Translations under genes and position numbers: made by a program
Assembly: GCA_026636295.1 (NCBI GenBank)
Contig: CP089451.1
Coordinates: forward strand, 62,001 to 126,000
Direction: 5' to 3'
Source: Medakamo hakoo
Lineage: Eukaryota > Chlorophyta > Trebouxiophyceae > Coccomyxaceae
DNA length: 64,000 nucleotides
Part shown: in pieces, positions 9,269-25,709 of the stretch
How positions within the stretch are numbered: position 1 is the stretch's first letter
Layout of the letters: each line of letters opens with the position of its first letter
Notes under the pieces: model-generated
What the model was told of the DNA's origin: nothing
The model's database searches: none
What the model saw: the letters and a program-made list of their open reading frames with translations, nothing else

Positions 9269-10510
9269 TCACCACTCCACACTCCACCCACACGCCGCCG
9301 CGGCCAGGGCGGCCACGTCCCGCGGGTCACGGCCCGTGCAATAGCCTGGGCCGACCTCCACACGCCCTGGCGTGCCAAGCTTGGCGGCAGCAGCCCGCAC
9401 CGCCGCGTCCACGGCGGACGGCGGCGAGGCGGCCGGGTCGCGCAGGTTGGTCGCGACCTCCCACGCCCACCCGCCACCGCCACCCCCGCCCCCGCCGCCC
9501 CCGCCCTCGTGCGGCAGGGCCAGGGCTTCCACGCCCGGCAGGCCGCCCCCACGCGCAGACACGGCCCGGGCAATGGCCGCGGCCGTCGCCTTGTCCAGGG
9601 CGGGCGCCCCCCGGCCGGACCGGAGGGGGACGTTCCAGTTGACGACCCACGGCGTCGCGCCGACGCTGACCGCGCCCGTCCGGCCAAACGCCGGGCCTGC
9701 TGCCGCGGGGGCGGGGCCAAAGTCGGGCGGCGGCAGCGCGGCCGGGTCGGCGGGGGCGCCGCCCGCCCCGCCCGGCGCCAGGGGCGGGCTGAAGTAGCCG
9801 GTCGCCCGGCGCACGGACGCCAGGGTGGGGGGCGGGACGGAGCGGGCGGGCCGGGCGGCCGCGCCGTACAGGTACGCCGGCACGCCGCCCGCGCCCAGCC
9901 CTGCCGCCACGGCGGTCGCGACCGCCGCGGCTCGCCCACACTCGCTCCACCCGCCGTCCAGCGGGTGGAACGCGATGTGGTCGACGGCCCCGAGCGTCGG
10001 GTGGTCGCCGCCGCCAGCGCCGCGCACGGCCCGCAGGTCGACAGCCTCCACCGCGGCGGACGCCGCCGCCAGCACGGCGCGGGCCAGCGCAGAGCCGGGC
10101 GCGGTCTCAACGCAGCCCACCGTGCCAACAAACGTCAGGCCCGTCCGGTTGTACGCCGAGTCCGGGAAGGCGTGGACCAGGGCGGCGGCGGCGGCGGCGG
10201 CGGCGTGCGGCGTGTGGGGTGGGGGTGGGGGTGGGCGGCCGGTGCCACCGCCTGCGCTCCTCCAGGGAAGCGCGGCCGGCACGGCGGCGCCGGCCGCGGC
10301 TGCGGCGGCGACGATGTCGTCTAAGACAGCACCTCGCCTGCCTTCGGAGATGTAGACGTTGGCCGCGACCAGCGTCGAGGCGCGGACGGGCAGGAGACGG
10401 TTGGAGGTGGTGGCCTCGCTGCGCGCGTCGGCCGCGGACGCAGCCATCGCACGGGCGGTGCCCGCCTGGCGTGCCCTGGCCAGCGCAGTCATCGTGCGCT
10501 GGGCAATCAT
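9269..10510 (-). CDS. Formiminotransferase (FTCD N-terminal domain) protein
   Basis: An intronless 413-aa protein related to glutamate formiminotransferase, which moves a formimino group onto tetrahydrofolate. Seen in order: VAANVYISEGRR, LVHAFPDSAYNRTG, FVGTVGCVETAPGS, HPTLGAVDHIAFHPLDG, then a second half with GATPWVVNWNVPL and VEVGPGYCTG. The cyclodeaminase domain of animal FTCD is absent; the chain stops after the transferase domain, as in plant homologues. I chose ATG 10510 (MIAQRTMTALARARQAG), which gives an Arg/Ala-rich presequence suggestive of an organelle; an in-frame ATG at 10615 would lengthen it by 35 residues. Whether folate or histidine catabolism is the true role is inferred. 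Divergent from the malic-enzyme gene. Confidence 0.85.
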   Translation of the reverse strand: MIAQRTMTALARARQAGTARAMAASAADARSEATTSNRLLPVRASTLVAANVYISEGRRGAVLDDIVAAAAAAGAAVPAALPWRSAGGGTGRPPPPPPHTPHAAAAAAAALVHAFPDSAYNRTGLTFVGTVGCVETAPGSALARAVLAAASAAVEAVDLRAVRGAGGGDHPTLGAVDHIAFHPLDGGWSECGRAAAVATAVAAGLGAGGVPAYLYGAAARPARSVPPPTLASVRRATGYFSPPLAPGGAGGAPADPAALPPPDFGPAPAAAGPAFGRTGAVSVGATPWVVNWNVPLRSGRGAPALDKATAAAIARAVSARGGGLPGVEALALPHEGGGGGGGGGGGGWAWEVATNLRDPAASPPSAVDAAVRAAAAKLGTPGRVEVGPGYCTGRDPRDVAALAAAACGWSVEW

Positions 10511-10693
10511 GTGCTCCCGTGGGCGTGGGTGGGAGGCCCAGGGGAGGGCTGTGATCACGCTCGCACGCGGTGATCCAATGTCCCTTCTTCGTGTGCGTGT
10601 TTTGCGCTCTGACAACGACGCGCGGCTTGTGTTTTCGTCTCATCACTAGTAACACTCTGTGACACATTTGTTGCCGGCCGACACCGAACCACA

Positions 10694-12861
10694 ATGCGGT
10701 CCGCCGCCAGCCGGGCGTCGGCCGCGGCGGCAAGCATGCTGCGACGCCAGGCGCACCAGCAGCAGCAGCAGCACGCCAGCCGCTTTGACACGGCCCGCGC
10801 CTTTGCGACGACGGCCAGCAGTGGCGGCGGCGGCGCCGCCGCCTCCTCGACCGCCGGCTCGGGCGATGAGGACGGTGGACCGGACAGGCCCTGCACGCCC
10901 TGGGTGCGCACCGTCGTCTCAGGCGTCGACCTGATGCGCAACCCCAAGTGCGTACAGGGTGGAGGGAGGGGGGTGAGGGCGCCTCCCCCGTTACGGAATT
11001 CCGTGACGAGGGAGGCCATGCGACGGCCCACGCCGCCAGCTCGACCATCCCAATCCATCCCCATCCAGCCTCGGGGCCTCCCCGCTCCGCCGCGCGTCCC
11101 TCTCCCTTGCCCTGCTCCCAACCCTCCCCATCCCCTCACTCTCCATCCCGCCCGCTCCCATCCCACCCCCGCATCCCGCGCTCGCTCGCTCACCTCACAC
11201 ACAGGTACAACAAGGGCCTCGCTTTTTCTGAGGAGGAGCGGGACCGCCTGTACCTGCGCGGCCTGTTGCCGCCCGCCGTCCTGCCCCAGCGCACCCAGGC
11301 CGCGCGCGCCATGGTCAACGTGCGGTCCAAGGCCGCGGACTTGGACCGGTTCACCTACCTGACCGCCCTGCAGGAACGCAACGAGCGCCTGTTCCACCGC
11401 GTCCTGTCCGAGCACGCGGAAGAGCTGCTGCCCATCTGGGGCGAGCCGACGCTGTCCGCGGCGTGCGGCGCGCACGGCCTGATGTTCAGGGCGCTGCCCC
11501 GCGCCCTGTTCGTGGGCCTGGCCGACCGCGGCCGCGTCTTCCAGATCCTGAAAAACTGGCCGGAGCGGCGGGTCAAGGTGCTGTGCATCACCGACGGCGC
11601 GCGCGTCGGCGCGCTCGGCGACCTGGGCGTCCAGGCCGTCGGCGTCCCCGTCTCCCGCCTGGCGCTCTACACCGCCCTGGGCGGCGTCGACCCGGCGGTG
11701 TGCCTGCCCATCGCCCTGGACGCCGGCACGGACAACGCGGACTTGTTGAGCTCGCCCTTCTACGTGGGCGCGCGCCGCCCGCGCGCGGGCGGCGAGGAAG
11801 TCTCGGCCCTCCTGGACGAGCTCATCGGGGCCGCCCGCGCCCGGTTCGGCCCCTCCCTGTTCATCCACTTTGAAAACATGCGGTACCGCCACTTGAACGC
11901 CGCCATCGCCGCCTGCCGGTCCGCCGGCCTGCCCGTCTGGTCGGACGACGTCCAGGGCACGGCCGCCGCGGTCGTGGCCGGCGTGCTGGCCGCCGCGCCG
12001 CTGACGGGCAAGGGCCTGGCCGACCACACCTGGATGTTCGTCGGGGATGGGCCCGCAGGCACGCACATCGCCGAACTGGTGGCGGCCGCCATCGCCTGGT
12101 CGGGCGGCGGCGGCGGCGCGACGGGGCTGGTCGAAGCCCGGGCGCGCCTGTGGCTGGCGGACTCGGGCGGCCTGGTCACCCGCGCCCGCCCGGACGCGGA
12201 GAAGCTGCCCGACCACGCGCTGCCGTACGCCCACGACGGCGTGCCGCACGCGCCCGACCTGGCGTCGGCGGTCGCCGCGGTCAAGCCGTCGGTGATTGTG
12301 GGGACGGCGGGCGGCGGCGCGGGCGGCGGCCCCCCGCCGGCCGCCCTGCGCTTCACCCGCCCGGTGCTGGAAGCCATGGCGGCGGCGCACGCCGCGCCGG
12401 TCGTCCTGCCGCTGTCCGCCCCCGTGGGTGAGGTGTCTGCTGAAGACGCGTACGCGTGGACGGGCGGCCGCGCCGTGTTCGCCGACCGCGCCCGCCGCCC
12501 CGGCAGCGGGCCGCTCGCGCTCGCCGACGGGTCCACGCGCGCGCCCGGCTCCGTCCAGACCGCCTACCTCTTCCCGGGCGTCGGCCTGGCGACGGTCGCG
12601 TCCCGGTCCACGCGGCTGCGGGACGATGCCGTGCTGGCCGCGGCGGAGGCGCTGGCCGGCGCGGTGACGCCCGCCGACCTGGAGGCGGGCCGGATTTACC
12701 CGCCGCTGCCGGCGCTGCGCTCCGTCGCGCTCGACGTCGCGACCGCGGCCGCGCGCCGCCAGTACGAGACGGGGTGCGCGACGGAGCTGCCCAAGCCGGC
12801 GGATCTGAGGGCGGCCCTGGCGGCGCGCATGTACGACCCGGCGTACAAGCGGTACCGGTGA
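10694..12861 (+). CDS. Malic-enzyme homologue with degenerate active site
   Basis: Two exons (10694-10947, 11205-12861; GTGCGT donor) give 636 aa with the full two-domain malic-enzyme architecture. The N-terminus (MRSAASRASAAAASMLRRQ) looks mitochondrial. Family landmarks: YNKGLAF, VKVLCITDGARVGALGDLG, LALYTALGG, CLPIALDAGTDN, DDVQGTAAAVVAG, a GDGPAGTH dinucleotide loop and YLFPGVGLATV. Several catalytic positions are changed compared with human ME2 as I recall it: the VYTPT tyrosine is replaced (IWGEPT, Gly164), the PVGK lysine is Arg236, the metal-ligand pair ED is E308-N309, the LSNP asparagine is Ala490, and the NN pair is Q536-T537. E308 and D332-D333 remain. It may be a non-catalytic paralogue or have changed substrate. 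A malic enzyme by fold, not safely by reaction. Confidence 0.85.
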
Positions 12862-13293: not shown

Positions 13294-16724
<3,431 letters not shown>

Positions 16725-18950: not shown

Positions 18951-21900
18951 ATGGCGGACGCACCACCTGCCACACTGACGGCGGCGCACGCACAAATTTC
19001 CAAGATGGGCGAAGCGGTGAGTTGGAAACGCACTCTTCTCCTCGTCCGCCACCGCCCTCTCGGTCGAGCACGGTCCGGAGACGGGCGCTGTGGGCGTGTG
19101 CAGGCAGTCTCGGGGCGCTGTCGTCCAGATTTCGACGCCACACCAAACATGCAAACGGTCGCATTCAAACGCACTCACTCCGTCTTTTTTCTTCCTCTTC
19201 CCCCACCAGTCCCTCGCCCGCGTCCGGGACGCGGCCCGCGCCTTTGCCGACTCGGACGAGGACGCCCGCCTGAGCGGCGGTGAGGGCGGCGCGGCCGACG
19301 TGCACAAGGTAAGGCGGAGGGGAGAGAGAGGGGAGAGCGGCGGCGGCGCGGTCGGCGTCTCTCCAGCCCGACCACTCACACTCACACATCACACTCCGTC
19401 TCACCCCCAAACAACACACAGTCCATGCACGCGGCCGTCTTTGCCGCGGCCGGACGCCAGGGCGCCGCACACCCGGCAACCACGGATGACTGCGGGTGGA
19501 CGGACGACGCGGGCGCCGGCTGGACGACGGCGCCGGCGCTCCCCTCCCGGTCGCACCACCACCACCACCGCCGGCGTGGCGCGCCCTCGCCTCCCCACCA
19601 CCGCCGCCCTGCTGTCGCGGCGGCCATGCGCGTGAACGACGACGTCGAAGACGGCGCCGTCGACGACGACGTCGCCGCCGCCTTGGCCGCGGACGCGGAC
19701 GCGTGGCGAGCCCGCCGCGACCGGGCGGCGGCCGACGCGGCGGCCGCGGAAGCCGACGCGGCCCGCGCGGCCGCGGCGGCGGGCGCGGCCCGCGCGGACC
19801 TGGCTGAGCTCGGCGCGGCTCTGCGTGAAGCCCGCGACGGCCTGGCCGAAGTCGTGGCGGCCAAAGCGGCGGCCGAAGCCGCCTTCACCGAAGTGCGCGC
19901 GGCCGCCGACGCGCGGACGGCGGCCGCCCAAGCCGCCGCAGACGGCGCGGCCGCCGCTGCCGCGGCTGTCGCCGACAAGGAACGCGCCTTGGACGCCCGC
20001 GAAGAGGGCCTGCGCGCCGCCCGTGAAGAGATTGCCCGCCGGGAAGCGGCAGCGACGGAAGCGGCCGCGGCGGCGCGCGACGCGGCCGACGCGGCGGCGG
20101 CGCGCGAGCGGTCCGCCATTGCCGCCGAAGCGGCCGCCGCCAAACGCGACGCGGCGGCGGCCGCTGCGGCCGCCGACGCGGCCGCCGCCCAGGCCCGGGC
20201 GGACGCGGCGGCCGAGGCGGCGGCAGCGGAAGCGGCGCGCCTGGCCAACCTGCGCGCCGCGCTCGACGCGCGCGCGGACGGCCTGGCCGCGTCCGAAGCC
20301 GCCTCCCGCCGGGAAGCCGCGGACCGGCTGGGCGCGTCGGCCCGGGAAGCCGCGGTCGCCGACGCGGCCCGGTCGGACGCGCTGGCCGACGCGGCCCGGG
20401 CGGCGGCGGAAGCAGAGGCCGCGCGCGAAGCGGCCGCGGCGGCGCGCGCGGCCGCGGCCGACGCGGAAGCCCGCGTCGAAGCCGCCCACCGGGAAGCCGC
20501 CGCCGCCGCCCGGGCCCGGGACGCGGCTCGCGCCGAAGAAGCGTCCGCCTCTGCCGCCGCCGCCAACCACCGGTCGGCCGCCGAAGCCGCGCTGGCCGAA
20601 GCCGACGCGGCTGCGCACGCCGCGGCTGACGCGCGACGCCAGGCCGACGACGCGCTGGCCGCCGCTTCCCGCGCCCGGGACCGGGCCGCCTCGGACGAGG
20701 CGTCGCACCGCGACCGGGCGGCGGCGTGGGAGGCATCGCTGGCGACGGAGGACGCGGCCCTGGCGGGGCGGCGGGCCGAGGTCGAAGCGGCCGAAGCGCG
20801 CGCGGCCGCGGAAGCGGACCGGCTGCGGGCCGCTGCCGCTGAAGCCGCTGGGACGGCGGCTGAGCTGGCGTCCCGCCGGGATGCCCTGGACGTCGAAGCG
20901 TCGACCCTGGCCGGCGCCCGGGCCGAGCTGGACGCGGGGCGGGCCGCGCTCGCAGAGCGCGAGCGCGCGCTCGCGGCGCATGAAGCCGCCCTCGCCGACT
21001 GGAAGGCCCGGTTCAAAGCGGACGCGGCCCGCGCCCTGGCAGCCAAGGAAGCCGAGCTGGCGGCCGAAGCGACTCGCTTGGACGAAGGCCGGGCCGAGCT
21101 GCGCACGGCGAGGGCGGACCTGGCGGCGGCGGTCGCGGCGGCCGAAGCCGCGGCCGCGTCGCGCGAGGCCGACTTGGCGGCGCGGGAAGCGAGCGCGGCG
21201 GAGGCGACGGCCGCGGCTGACGCCCGCGTTGCGGCGGCCGACGCTCGTGCCGCCGGCATCGTCGCGGCGGCTGATGCCCGGGCGGCGGCGGCGGCCGAGG
21301 CCGCGGCGGCGGCCGACGTGCGCGCGGCTGAGCTGGAAGCCGCGGCTGCGGACCTGGCGGCCGAGCGGGCGGCCCTGGACAGCCGGCGGGCCGAGCTGAC
21401 GGCCGCTGAAACTGCTGTGGCCGACCGGGAGCGCCGCTGGGAGGCCGCGACGGCGTCCCTCGACGCCCGGTCGGCGGCCCTGGCGGAAGCCGAAGCCGCT
21501 GCGTCGGCCGAGGCGGAGGCCGCGGCCGACCTGCGTGCGACGGCGGAACGGGTCGCGGCCGACGCGGAAGCCCGCTCCTCCGCTGCCGCTGCCGCTGCCG
21601 CTGCCGCTGCCGACCGCGAACGGGCGGCCGACGCCCGCGCTGCCGCCGCCTCGGCCGCCGAGGCTGAAGCCCGTGCGGCAGCGGACGCAGCCGCTGCGAA
21701 AATCGCAGAAGCACACGCCGCGGCCGAGCGCGCTGAAGCCGCGCGCGCGGCCGCCGCCGCCACGGAAGCCGCCTTGGCCGACGCCCGCCGGTCTTTGCTG
21801 GCGGCCGCGGATGATGCGCTGGCCATCAGTGCTGCTGACAGCGCGGGACAGGCGCTGGCCGGGGGCGAGGGCGACGGCCCGGCCGCGGGCGCGCTGGCCG

Positions 21901-24900
21901 CGTGGGCGCGCGCCGAAGCCGCGGCGGGCGTCGTGCGTGCCGGCTCCTCCACCATCCCGTCCGACCCTGCCGCCCGCACCGCTGCCTTAGCCGCCCGGGA
22001 AGCCGCCCTGGTGAAGTGGGCGGCCGAACTGGACGGCGCGACGACGCGGGCGGCAGCGGCGCGGCGGGCGCTGCGCGCGGCCGTCAAGGAAGCGGCGCGC
22101 GCCGAAGGCGCGGCCGCGGCGGCCGAAGCGGCCGCGTCCGCGGCGGGCCGCCGGGAGGCGGCGGTCACCGCTGCTGCCGCTGAGGTGGGCCGCCGCGAAG
22201 ACGCGGTCGCCGCCGCTGAAGCCCGCCTGGCGGCGGCGGCGGCCGCGGCCGCGGCGCGGGACGTGGACCTGGACCGGCGCGAGGCGGCCGTCGCCGACGC
22301 CGACGCCCGGTGCGGCCGCGCGGCGGAGGAGCGGGCGGCGGCGGAAGCCGAGCGGGCGGCGGTCGCCGCCCGGGCCGACGAACTCGCGGCTCTCCAAGCC
22401 TCTCTCTCCACGCTGGAAGAGCGCCTGGCCCGCGAGGGCGCGGCCCTGGCCGGCCGGGAGGCCGCGGTCGAAGCCAAGGAAGCGGCCGTCGCGGCCGCGG
22501 CCGCCGACGCCCTGGCCGCGGGCGCCGCCGCGGAAGCCGCCCACCGGTCCGACGCGGACAAGCTGGCGGACGAGCGGGCGCATCTGGACCAAGCTCGCCG
22601 GGCGGCTGAAACCGCCCGCGCGGACGCGGAAGCCGCGGCGGCCGCCGCCGCGGCCGAGCGCGAGAGCCTGGCGGCCGAGCGCGCGCGCTTGGCCGACGCG
22701 CGCGAAGCCGCCGAAGCCGCCGCGTCGCTGGCGGACGACCTGCGCGCCAAGGAAGCCGAGCTCACAGCGGCCGCGGCCGACACGGCGGCGGCGGCTGAGG
22801 CCCTGGCCCGCGACCGGGCGGACGCGGACGCGGCCCTGGCGGAGGCGGAGGGTGCGCGCGCAGCCGCCTCGGCCGCGCGCGCGGCCGCCGACGCGGCGCG
22901 CGAAGCCGCCGCCCAAGCCCAGGCCGAAGCCGCCGCCTCGTCCGCGTCCGCCCGCGCCGAGAAGGAAGCCGCAGCCCGGGCCCGCATCGACGCGGACAAG
23001 GAAGCGGCCGCGTCCCGCGCAGCGACGCTCGAAGCGGACAAGCGCGAAGCAGCCGCTGCCGCCGAGCTCGCGTCGGCGCGGGCCGCGCGTGAAGCCGCCG
23101 AGGCGGCGACCGCGGCCGCCAAAGCCGCCGAAGCCGCGGCCCGGGCGGCGGTGGCCGAGGCGCAGGCCGCCCGCACCGCCGCCAAGACCGAAACCGGCGC
23201 GGCGTCCGAAAAGGAGGCGGCCCTGGCGCAGCGCGCGGCCGCGCTCGCGCGCGCGGAAGGCGAGCTGGCGGGCCGGGAGGCCGGGCTGGCGGACGCGGAA
23301 CGCCGCGTGGCGGACGCCCTCGCCGCCGCTGACGCCGCCCGCGCGTCCGCCGTCCGCGCCCGTGAAGAAGCCGACGCGGAAGCGGCCCGGGCGGCGCGGG
23401 AAGCTGCTGCGGCCGCGGCCGCCAGCGTCGCCGCCCAGGCCGCGACCGCGGCCGCGGCCGACAAGGAAGCCGCCGCGGCCAAGCGTGCCGCCGACGCGGA
23501 CGCCCGGTCTCAGGCCATCGCCGAAGAAGTGTCCGCCCGCGAAGCCGCGCTCGCGGCCCGGCGCACCCGCCTGGAGCAGGAGCTGGCGGGGCTGGAGGCG
23601 CGCGTGCGGGGCGAGGCCGAAGCCGCGCGCGCGGAGCTGGGCGCGCGCGAGGCGCGGGTGCGGGCCGCGGAAGCGGGGGCCGCGGACGCGGCGGCGGCGG
23701 CGGCTGCCGAGGCTCGCGCCGCCGCCCGCGCCGAGGTCGCGGACGCCCTGCGCCGGGCGGGCGAGGCCAAGGCAGCCGCGGAGGCGGCAGCCAAAGCCGC
23801 GGCCGAGCGCGAGGAGGCCGCGCGGCGCGCGCGCCTGGACGCGGACGCCCGGACCGCCGCGGCGGCGGAAGCCACGCAAGCCGCGTCCGACCGGGAAGCG
23901 GCCGCCCGGGCGGCCGAAGCCGCGGCGTCCCAGGCCCGGGAAGCGGCGCGGGCCCTGAAAGACGAGGTCGCGGCGCGGGCTGCGGCCTTGGCCGCGGCTG
24001 AAGCGACGCTGCGCGCCGACGCCGACCGCCTGGCCTCCGAACGGGGGGCCTGGGAAGCGGGCGCCGCCGACCGGGCGGCCGCCGCCCGGCTCGCCGGCGG
24101 CGCGTCCGACAAGCTGGCCGCGGCGGAGCGGGCGGCCAAAGAGGCGCAGGCCGCCGCGGCCGCGCTCGCGGCGCGCGAGGCCGACCTGGCCCGGCGCGAA
24201 GCCGCCGCTGCCGCCGACGCGGACGCGGCCGACGCCCGGCGTGCCGCGCTGGCCTCCGACTGGGAACGGTTGGAGGCCACGCGGTCTGCCCTGGACAAGC
24301 GTGAAGCCGACGTGCGGGCCGCGGAAGCGGCGGCCCGGCGGTGCGTCGCCGCGGCCGAAGCCGCGCGGGCCGAAGCCGACGCGAAAGCCGCGGCCGCGGA
24401 AGCGGCGGCCAAGGCCGCCGCCGACGCGGGCGCGGCTGTCGCGGCCCGTGAAGAAGCGGCGGCGTCGGCGGCGGCCGCGCTGGAGGCCCGCGTCGCTGAC
24501 CTGGCCGGCCGGGCGGCGGACGCGGACGAGGTCGCGGCCCTGTACGAACGGGTCAAGGCGCGGGAGGCGGCGCTGTCGGCCGCGGAAGCGGAGGTGGAAG
24601 AACGCGAGGCGTCCCGGGCCGCGGCCGCGGCCGCCGCCGCGGCGGCGGCCGACCAGGCTGCCGCCGCCCGCGAAGCCCGCCTGGCCGCCCGGGAAGCCGC
24701 GCTGGACGCGGCGACGGCGGCGCGCGGCGACGGCCTCGCCGCGCGCGAGGCCGCGCTCGCCGACGCGGAAGCCAAGCTCGCCGACGCCCGCCGGGCCGCG
24801 GCCGCCGACCGGGCTGCGGCCGACGCCCGGGCCGCTGCTGCGGAAGCCGCGGCCGCCGCCGCGGAACGCTTGCGCGCCGACGCGGACGCCCGCGCCGCCG

Positions 24901-25709
24901 CGTCGGCGTCCAAAGAAGCGGCCGCGGCCGCGCGCGCGCGAGAGGTGTCGGACGCCGCGGCCGCGCTCGAGGCGCGGGCGGCGGCCGTGGAAGCGGGCGC
25001 CGCGCGGGCGGCTGCCCTCCGTGACGGCGCCGCCAGCGCTGCGCGCTCTGTCCTGGCTGCTGCGGTGACGGGTGGCGGGCCTGGCGGCGGTGGCGGTCGC
25101 CCGACCGTGCGGTCCCGCCTGGGCCGCCGCCCGTCGTCCGGGGCTGGTGGGGATGGCACACCCGTCCCGGCCGCGCTCTCCTTTGGCGGCGCGGGCGGGG
25201 GGGCCACCCCCGCCGGCGCCCGCCTCCGCGTCTTTGACGGCGCCAACATCAACGAAGGCCAGGGCTCGGTCTCCTTTGCGACCGCCGCGTCGGGCGGCGA
25301 CGGCGGCGGCGGCGGCGGCGGCGGCGTGGCCGACACGCCGGGCCCGGGCGGCGCCGAGCGCGCGCGCCTGCGGACGGCCTGGGCCGCGGTGGAGGCGGGC
25401 GCGGCCCGCGCCGCCGCCCGCCTGGCTCGGTTAGAAGGCGTCGCTGCCGCTGTCACCCCCTCCGCCAACGGCCCGCCCCTGCCGGACGTGGCGGCCCTGC
25501 GGGCGGAGTTTGCGGGCCTGGCCGCCGACGGCGCGTCTGTGGCCGCGTCGATCGCGGCGGTGGGCGGGTCCGCCTCCGCCGCCGCGGCGAGCCGGGCTGT
25601 CGACGCGCACGCGGCTGGGTTGGCCGCCTGGGAAGCACGCCTCGCCGAAGCGGTGTCGGCGGTCTTGGGTGCGGCGACGCCTGGACCTAAACAGAGAGGG
25701 ACGGAGTGA
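18951..25709 (+). CDS. Giant alanine-rich coiled-coil protein (2150 aa), unknown
   Basis: Three exons (18951-19016, 19210-19308, 19422-25709; all GT-AG, phase 0). The first two encode a small folded-looking N-terminus (MADAPPATLTAAHAQISKM; SLARVRDAARAFADSDEDA). A His/Pro-rich linker follows, then about 1800 residues dominated by Ala, Glu, Arg and Asp in helical, almost proline-free repeats such as AREAALADAEAKLADARRAA and KEAELAAEATRLDEGR. Tryptophan recurs sparsely (VKWAAEL, SDWERLEATR). The chain ends with a Gly-rich hinge containing RPTVRSRLGRRPSS and a final helical module (AERARLRTAWAAVEAGAARA). No motor, kinase or transmembrane domain is seen. It should form a long rod; cytoskeletal, basal-body, Golgi or nuclear-matrix roles are all guesses. 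Opposite-strand openness is a codon-bias effect. Confidence 0.75.

Follow-up and report, generated by a model that had tools for sequence, protein, structure and literature searches.

A malic enzyme homologue of Medakamo hakoo with most catalytic residues replaced may be an old chlorophyte pseudoenzyme

A malic enzyme-like gene is present in a stretch of 64,000 nucleotides (nt) from the trebouxiophyte green alga Medakamo hakoo (GenBank assembly GCA_026636295.1, contig CP089451.1, positions 62,001 to 126,000 of the forward strand). The whole of this stretch is termed the window, and the gene and its product are termed the window gene and the window protein. The gene consists of two exons (Table 1), and the spliced reading frame is intact and encodes 636 residues. 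An earlier note, made from the sequence without database searches, had given the homologue as 11205..12861, which is exon 2 only; the residue numbers of that note agree with the two-exon model. The translated sequence of exon 1 agrees with RPxTPWVRxVISGVDLMRxPKYNKGLAF, the consensus of the chlorophyte clade of homologues described below. The guanine plus cytosine (GC) content at the third codon position is 0.950, compared with 0.926 and 0.864 in the flanking open frames. The note had likewise described the frame as intact and the codon use as matching that of the neighbors.

The two malic enzyme domains are matched over nearly the full length of their profiles, PF00390 at 3.6e-46 (profile positions 1-170 of 182) and PF03949 at 7e-48 (positions 1-255 of 258). 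An AlphaFold2 model displays a confidently predicted malic enzyme fold, with a predicted local distance difference test score (pLDDT) of 89.7 and a predicted template modeling score (pTM) of 0.90. Domains and predicted fold together place the window protein in the malic enzyme family as a homologue and agree with the suggestion of the note that the fold is conserved over both domains. The best-scoring PDB chains are malic enzymes, with plant NADP-malic enzymes on top. Membership as a known subunit in a larger complex of solved structure was considered and, for the PDB, rejected: each of the sequence matches there (30 and 36) bears the name of a malic enzyme, a malate oxidoreductase or a malate dehydrogenase, and the three that were inspected in alignment keep the VYTPT and SNPT-type motifs.

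In malic enzymes Tyr112 acts as the general acid and Lys183 as the general base, the metal ligands are E255, D256 and D279, and the pocket Asn residues 421, 466 and 467 touch the substrate. Human ME2 was used as the ruler, with the numbering checked against PDB chains, and ten sites were compared (112, 165, 183, 255, 256, 278, 279, 421, 466 and 467). In the alignment with human ME2, the window protein shows replacements of Y112 (by G164), K183 (R236), D256 (N309), N421 (A490), N466 (Q536) and N467 (T537), and it retains R165 (R218), E255 (E308), D278 (D332) and D279 (D333). Thus the acid and base positions have Gly and Arg, the metal ligand positions Glu, Asn and Asp, and the pocket positions Ala, Gln and Thr, which is not the residue set of a functional malic enzyme. 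The note had correctly listed the changes at Tyr, Lys, the ligand Asp and two of the pocket Asn, as well as the persistence of two acidic ligands; the third pocket Asn, N466, is an additional replacement. Its statement that the dinucleotide loop persists holds for the glycines but not for the loop as a whole, which reads GDGPAG compared with GAGEAG (A312 to D and E314 to P).

A shifted position of the Tyr and Lys, an alternative raised in the note, was checked and rejected. The flanking motifs align without gaps (PIWGEPT with PIVYTPT, and PVSRLAL with PVGKLCL), thus the two catalytic residues are truly replaced. Nor are the substitutions sequencing noise, since the closest relative found in protein searches, P0001, has 92% identity and the same letters at all ten sites. 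G112, R183 and N256 are also carried by the partial or chimeric sequences P0041, P0055 and P0056.

Table 1. Exons, intron and key codons of the window gene (window coordinates; site numbers are those of human ME2)
Feature	Position	Strand	Description
Exon 1	10694..10947	+	N-terminal extension rich in Ala/Ser/Arg, then conserved RPCTPWVRTVVSGVDLMRNPK, the start of the malic enzyme body
Intron	10948..11204	+	GT..AG; splicing gives N-P-K-Y-N-K, the same as in homologues
Exon 2	11205..12861	+	Malic (PF00390) and Malic_M (PF03949) domains; stop codon 12859-12861
Gly164 codon	11440..11442	+	At the catalytic Tyr112 position
Arg236 codon	11656..11658	+	At the catalytic Lys183 position
Glu308 and Asn309 codons	11872..11877	+	E255 metal ligand kept; D256 metal ligand replaced
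Ala490 codon	12418..12420	+	At the Asn421 position
Gln536-Thr537 codons	12556..12561	+	At the Asn466-Asn467 positions

Seven matching stretches are found in the Medakamo genome (15.6 Mb, 16 contigs), and these are read as the window gene and four other malic enzymes. All ten checked residues are present in three of the paralogues (L002, L003/L005 and L004). For the fourth (L006/L007) a rough two-exon model covers eight of them, all kept, and leaves out positions 278 and 279. The paralogues therefore look normal, and the window gene is the exception in its genome. Paralogue L004 (contig C1, 1092635-1094182) is very divergent, with a branch of 1.72 changes per column, yet all ten residues are kept. 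L002 groups with the canonical algal malic enzymes in both of the trees described below. An origin of the window gene as a recent duplicate of the organism's own canonical enzyme is unsupported; all four paralogues fall outside the clade of the window protein in a tree of 93 rows.

By source name, further members of this clade come from Coccomyxa, Myrmecia, Chlorella, Micractinium, Picochlorum, Chlamydomonas, Gonium, Volvox, Haematococcus, Tetradesmus, Raphidocelis, Scenedesmus, Ostreobium and Bryopsis. Viral contigs were also scanned and gave no relative. Residues were counted in 64 full-length clade rows, after removal of 9 fragments or chimeras from a set of 73; the assignment of 10 of the 64 to the clade is by similarity, without placement on the tree. 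The window protein displays the features of the clade, with no Asn at 421 or 467, Gly at 167 and Ser at 182. The canonical residue is absent from all 64 rows at N421 and N467 and is kept in 10 at N466 and in 9 at Y112. K183 is found in 37 rows, the other 27 having Arg, and R165 in 40. E255 is kept in 41, D256 in 42 and D279 in 28, with all three metal ligands together in 23, and D278 is present in 63. Among 43 hand-picked canonical control rows, 41 keep all ten sites.

Nine named species have both the clade type and the canonical type, by source name: Coccomyxa subellipsoidea, Micractinium conductrix, Chlorella sorokiniana, Chlorella vulgaris, Raphidocelis subcapitata, Tetradesmus obliquus, Chlamydomonas schloesseri, Chlamydomonas sp. 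UWO 241 and Haematococcus lacustris. The canonical partner was scored in six of these (P0158, P0177, P0181, P0270, P0195 and P0173), and all six keep the ten residues.

In a maximum likelihood tree of 64 rows, with the ten key sites masked, the chlorophyte clade has a support of 100/99, and a quick tree of 93 rows agrees on the clade. The window protein, P0001 and P0002 of Coccomyxa group inside it at 98/93. NADP-malic enzymes of land plants and streptophytes join the clade at 99/93, and the canonical chlorophyte NADP-malic enzymes stand apart. A streptophyte pair (P0124/P0031) may be nearer to the clade than the other plants (support 90/71).

On the 93-row tree N421 and N467 need one change each. 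The changes needed at the other sites, with the number of losses if the residue was never regained in parentheses, are 4 (8) for Y112, 2 (2) for K183, 5 (12) for N466, 7 (7) for E255, 9 (10) for D256 and 8 (15) for D279. The earliest clade rows (P0064, P0050 and P0111) keep the Tyr, the Lys and the metal ligands and have no pocket Asn, and P0064 is also without R165. This suggests that the substrate contacts were lost first. The likely order, as read from the tree, is that N421 and N467 were lost once at the base of the clade, that the Tyr was then lost several times, and that the change of Lys to Arg and the losses of metal ligands followed in sublineages. Tyr112 is present in P0010 (Chlamydomonas), P0012 (Edaphochlamys) and P0015 (Gonium), amid relatives that are mostly without it, and both retention and regain are possible.

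The branch to the window protein and P0001 is long (0.62 changes per column), which would fit a decaying gene that is heading for loss in Medakamo. Such decay is highly improbable and was rejected: the 636-residue frame is open, and the window protein and P0001 differ at 42 of 535 columns without an indel. These differences fall in columns that are variable among the other clade members (mean entropy 2.00 compared with 1.35), and none of 10000 random draws was as high, thus conserved columns have been spared. The GC content at the third codon position, the pLDDT of the model and the relatives, by source name, in many chlorophyte genera also argue against it. Columns conserved in canonical enzymes have a median retention in the clade of 0.55 where they lie within 6 residues of a key site or in the dinucleotide loop (39 columns), compared with 0.97 elsewhere (40 columns; p=0.0013). 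At position 183, where only Lys or Arg occurs, and at 278, with Asp in 63 of the 64 rows, the pattern is read as a structural salt bridge that has outlasted the chemistry. The loss of the same residue classes across the clade, with the fold conserved, supports the proposal of the note that the gene is not in simple decay and may code either for a pseudoenzyme or for an enzyme that has acquired a new substrate; the spread over the lineage and the probable loss of Asn before Tyr and Lys lie beyond what was proposed there.

With no acid, no base, an incomplete metal site and no pocket Asn, given the established roles of these residues, malate oxidation is not expected of the window protein. That such proteins persist in many chlorophytes, whose cells also have normal enzymes, suggests a different role. 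The best reading of the sequences is of an old pseudoenzyme, at least for malate chemistry, that may be kept as a scaffold, sensor or partner subunit. We put at roughly 0.62 the probability that the window protein is an old malic enzyme homologue of the chlorophyte clade which, at least in this lineage, no longer carries out the malic enzyme reaction and works non-catalytically. The protein would then be unable to oxidize or decarboxylate malate at a useful rate, and would form a stable oligomer of malic enzyme fold to which a partner protein or an anionic ligand binds. The Arg236-Asp332 pair probably preserves the Lys183-Asp278 contact as a structural link, and a carboxylate could still be bound by Arg218.

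The window protein might also be a working malic enzyme in which unusual residues do the chemistry, Arg in place of the Lys and water or another side chain in place of the Tyr. It retains E255, D279 and R165 and has a GxGxxG loop, and six members of the clade keep Y112, K183 and all metal ligands. However it combines the loss of the Tyr and the Lys with that of one metal ligand and of every pocket Asn, and the ten sites are kept in nearly all canonical control rows, in three of the organism's own paralogues and, as far as covered, in the fourth. A working enzyme of this kind is thus very unlikely.

Several observations weigh against a pseudoenzyme. P0010, P0012 and P0015 keep not only Tyr112 but also K183 and all metal ligands, and with the three earliest rows they make up the six members just mentioned, thus activity on some substrate is possible in parts of the clade. 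Faster decay of the ten sites than of the other 79 canonical-conserved columns is borderline (Mann-Whitney p=0.06; Fisher p=0.044 and 0.015); one reason for this weaker result is that the pocket around these sites has itself changed to a large extent. Lastly G167, A176 and S182, which are near-invariant and specific to the clade (58, 58 and 60 of the 64 rows), lie in the pocket loop and are as compatible with a new ligand or new chemistry as with a protein that is only a scaffold.

These residues bear on a further alternative, that the clade is a neofunctionalized enzyme which runs another reaction on a different substrate, with a reshaped loop between R165 and K/R183 and a modified dinucleotide loop. 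The changes L167G, G176A and G182S, in the loop before residue 183, are among 23 near-invariant clade-specific columns. Lys or Arg at 183 and the nucleotide-domain residues G311, D345 and G348 are present in 64 of 64 rows, and D278 in all but one. A conserved new active site is, however, not what is seen at position 112, with ten different letters, or at 421, with twelve letters and gaps. The metal ligands have been lost repeatedly, as counted above, and the dinucleotide loop is altered, with A312 kept in 3%, A315 in 19% and G318 in 5% of the rows. The window protein itself is without both acid and base. Neofunctionalization is rather unlikely, although it is the main rival of the pseudoenzyme reading. 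It was suggested in PMC5958461 (2018), where a passage states, with data not shown, that some green algal isoforms cluster on a very long branch and have several mutations in conserved motifs. Those isoforms resemble the present clade in being green algal, on a long branch and mutated in conserved motifs. They differ in that the passage gives no residues and sets the very long branch apart from the rest, whereas the clade described here joins the plant NADP-malic enzymes. The two may be the same group, and to that extent the existence of odd green algal isoforms is not new. What is new here is the residue map, the breadth of the clade, its placement beside the plant NADP-malic enzymes, the probable sequence of the losses and the evidence that constraint has continued. 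No paper on an inactive malic enzyme clade was found among the literature matches listed, which cover titles and abstract openings and leave out most subscription journals.

If the window protein is a pseudoenzyme, its partner could perhaps be one of the active malic enzymes present in its cell. A regulatory subunit in a hetero-oligomer of this kind, as the note had suggested, is a special case of the pseudoenzyme reading, and is a guess that is unlikely to be right. Consistent with it are the predicted fold, the four other paralogues in the genome and the nine named species with both types. The C-terminal ending YR, which is present in at least 45 of the 64 clade rows and occurs in canonical rows too, also fits.

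The first 45 residues of the window protein have 6 R/K, 1 D/E and 23 S/T/A. By composition this N-terminus resembles a mitochondrial presequence, and a mitochondrial location of the protein is likely. On the minus strand, 9269-10615 is occupied by a divergent neighbor with a formiminotransferase N-terminal domain (FTCD_N). Its frame starts 78 bases from the ATG of the malic enzyme-like gene, thus the two may share a promoter region. Downstream and convergent is an open frame for a CDC48/p97-type AAA ATPase (minus strand, 13294-15939). Further away is an open frame of 2094 codons (plus strand, 19425-25709), extremely rich in Ala and with many Arg, Glu and Asp, whose product looks like a long alanine-rich coiled-coil protein. 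The GC content of this stretch is 80-84%, measured over 19500-24499.

Among known systems, the plant NADP-malic enzymes (maize 5ou5 and sorghum 6c7n) differ in that plant rows keep Y112, K183, E255, D256, D279, N421, N466 and N467, of which the window protein has only E255 and D279. The canonical chlorophyte NADP-malic enzymes (C. reinhardtii MME2/MME3, i.e., P0190/P0208, and L002 of Medakamo) are of the same family and organisms as the clade, but form a separate supported clade with all ten residues present. Proteins of the chlorophyte ME6/MME6 type (Scenedesmus ME6, P0028; Gonium A0A140JWU7, P0015; Coccomyxa P0002) belong to the same clade as the window protein and have likewise lost N421 and N467. 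They keep Lys183, and P0015 the Tyr also, thus the lineage of the window protein is the more altered. The subunits of plant mitochondrial NAD-malic enzyme (G+R clade) have GXGSXG/A in the second dinucleotide motif, according to a passage in PMC5958461, and the GDGPAG of the window protein does not match. To judge from names, C. reinhardtii MME6 (Cre06.g251400) would belong to the clade. A review (PMC11548211) gives it a predicted mitochondrial location and transcript levels that seem not to change through the day, and a carbon-flux model (PMC4746324) places it among the carbon-fixation genes of C. reinhardtii.

For the lineage as a whole, the chances are evenly balanced that what corresponds in core green algae to the land-plant NADP-malic enzyme became a pseudoenzyme long ago, with the pocket Asn, then the Tyr, then the Lys and metal ligands lost. 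The fold and a new set of clade-specific residues would have been retained for a regulatory or sensor role that is non-catalytic and possibly mitochondrial. Carbon-flux models include the malic enzymes of algae. If the proteins of the clade do not act on malate, the label NADP-dependent malic enzyme would be wrong for them in several chlorophytes, as would flux models that assign flux to them. The clade forms a graded series, from proteins that have lost only substrate contacts to those in which the acid, the base and metal ligands have gone, and could be used to test in what order a pseudoenzyme evolves. C. reinhardtii would provide a genetic system for the clade if the membership of MME6 is confirmed. 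If the pseudoenzyme reading is true, the malic enzyme fold would here be used without malic enzyme chemistry.
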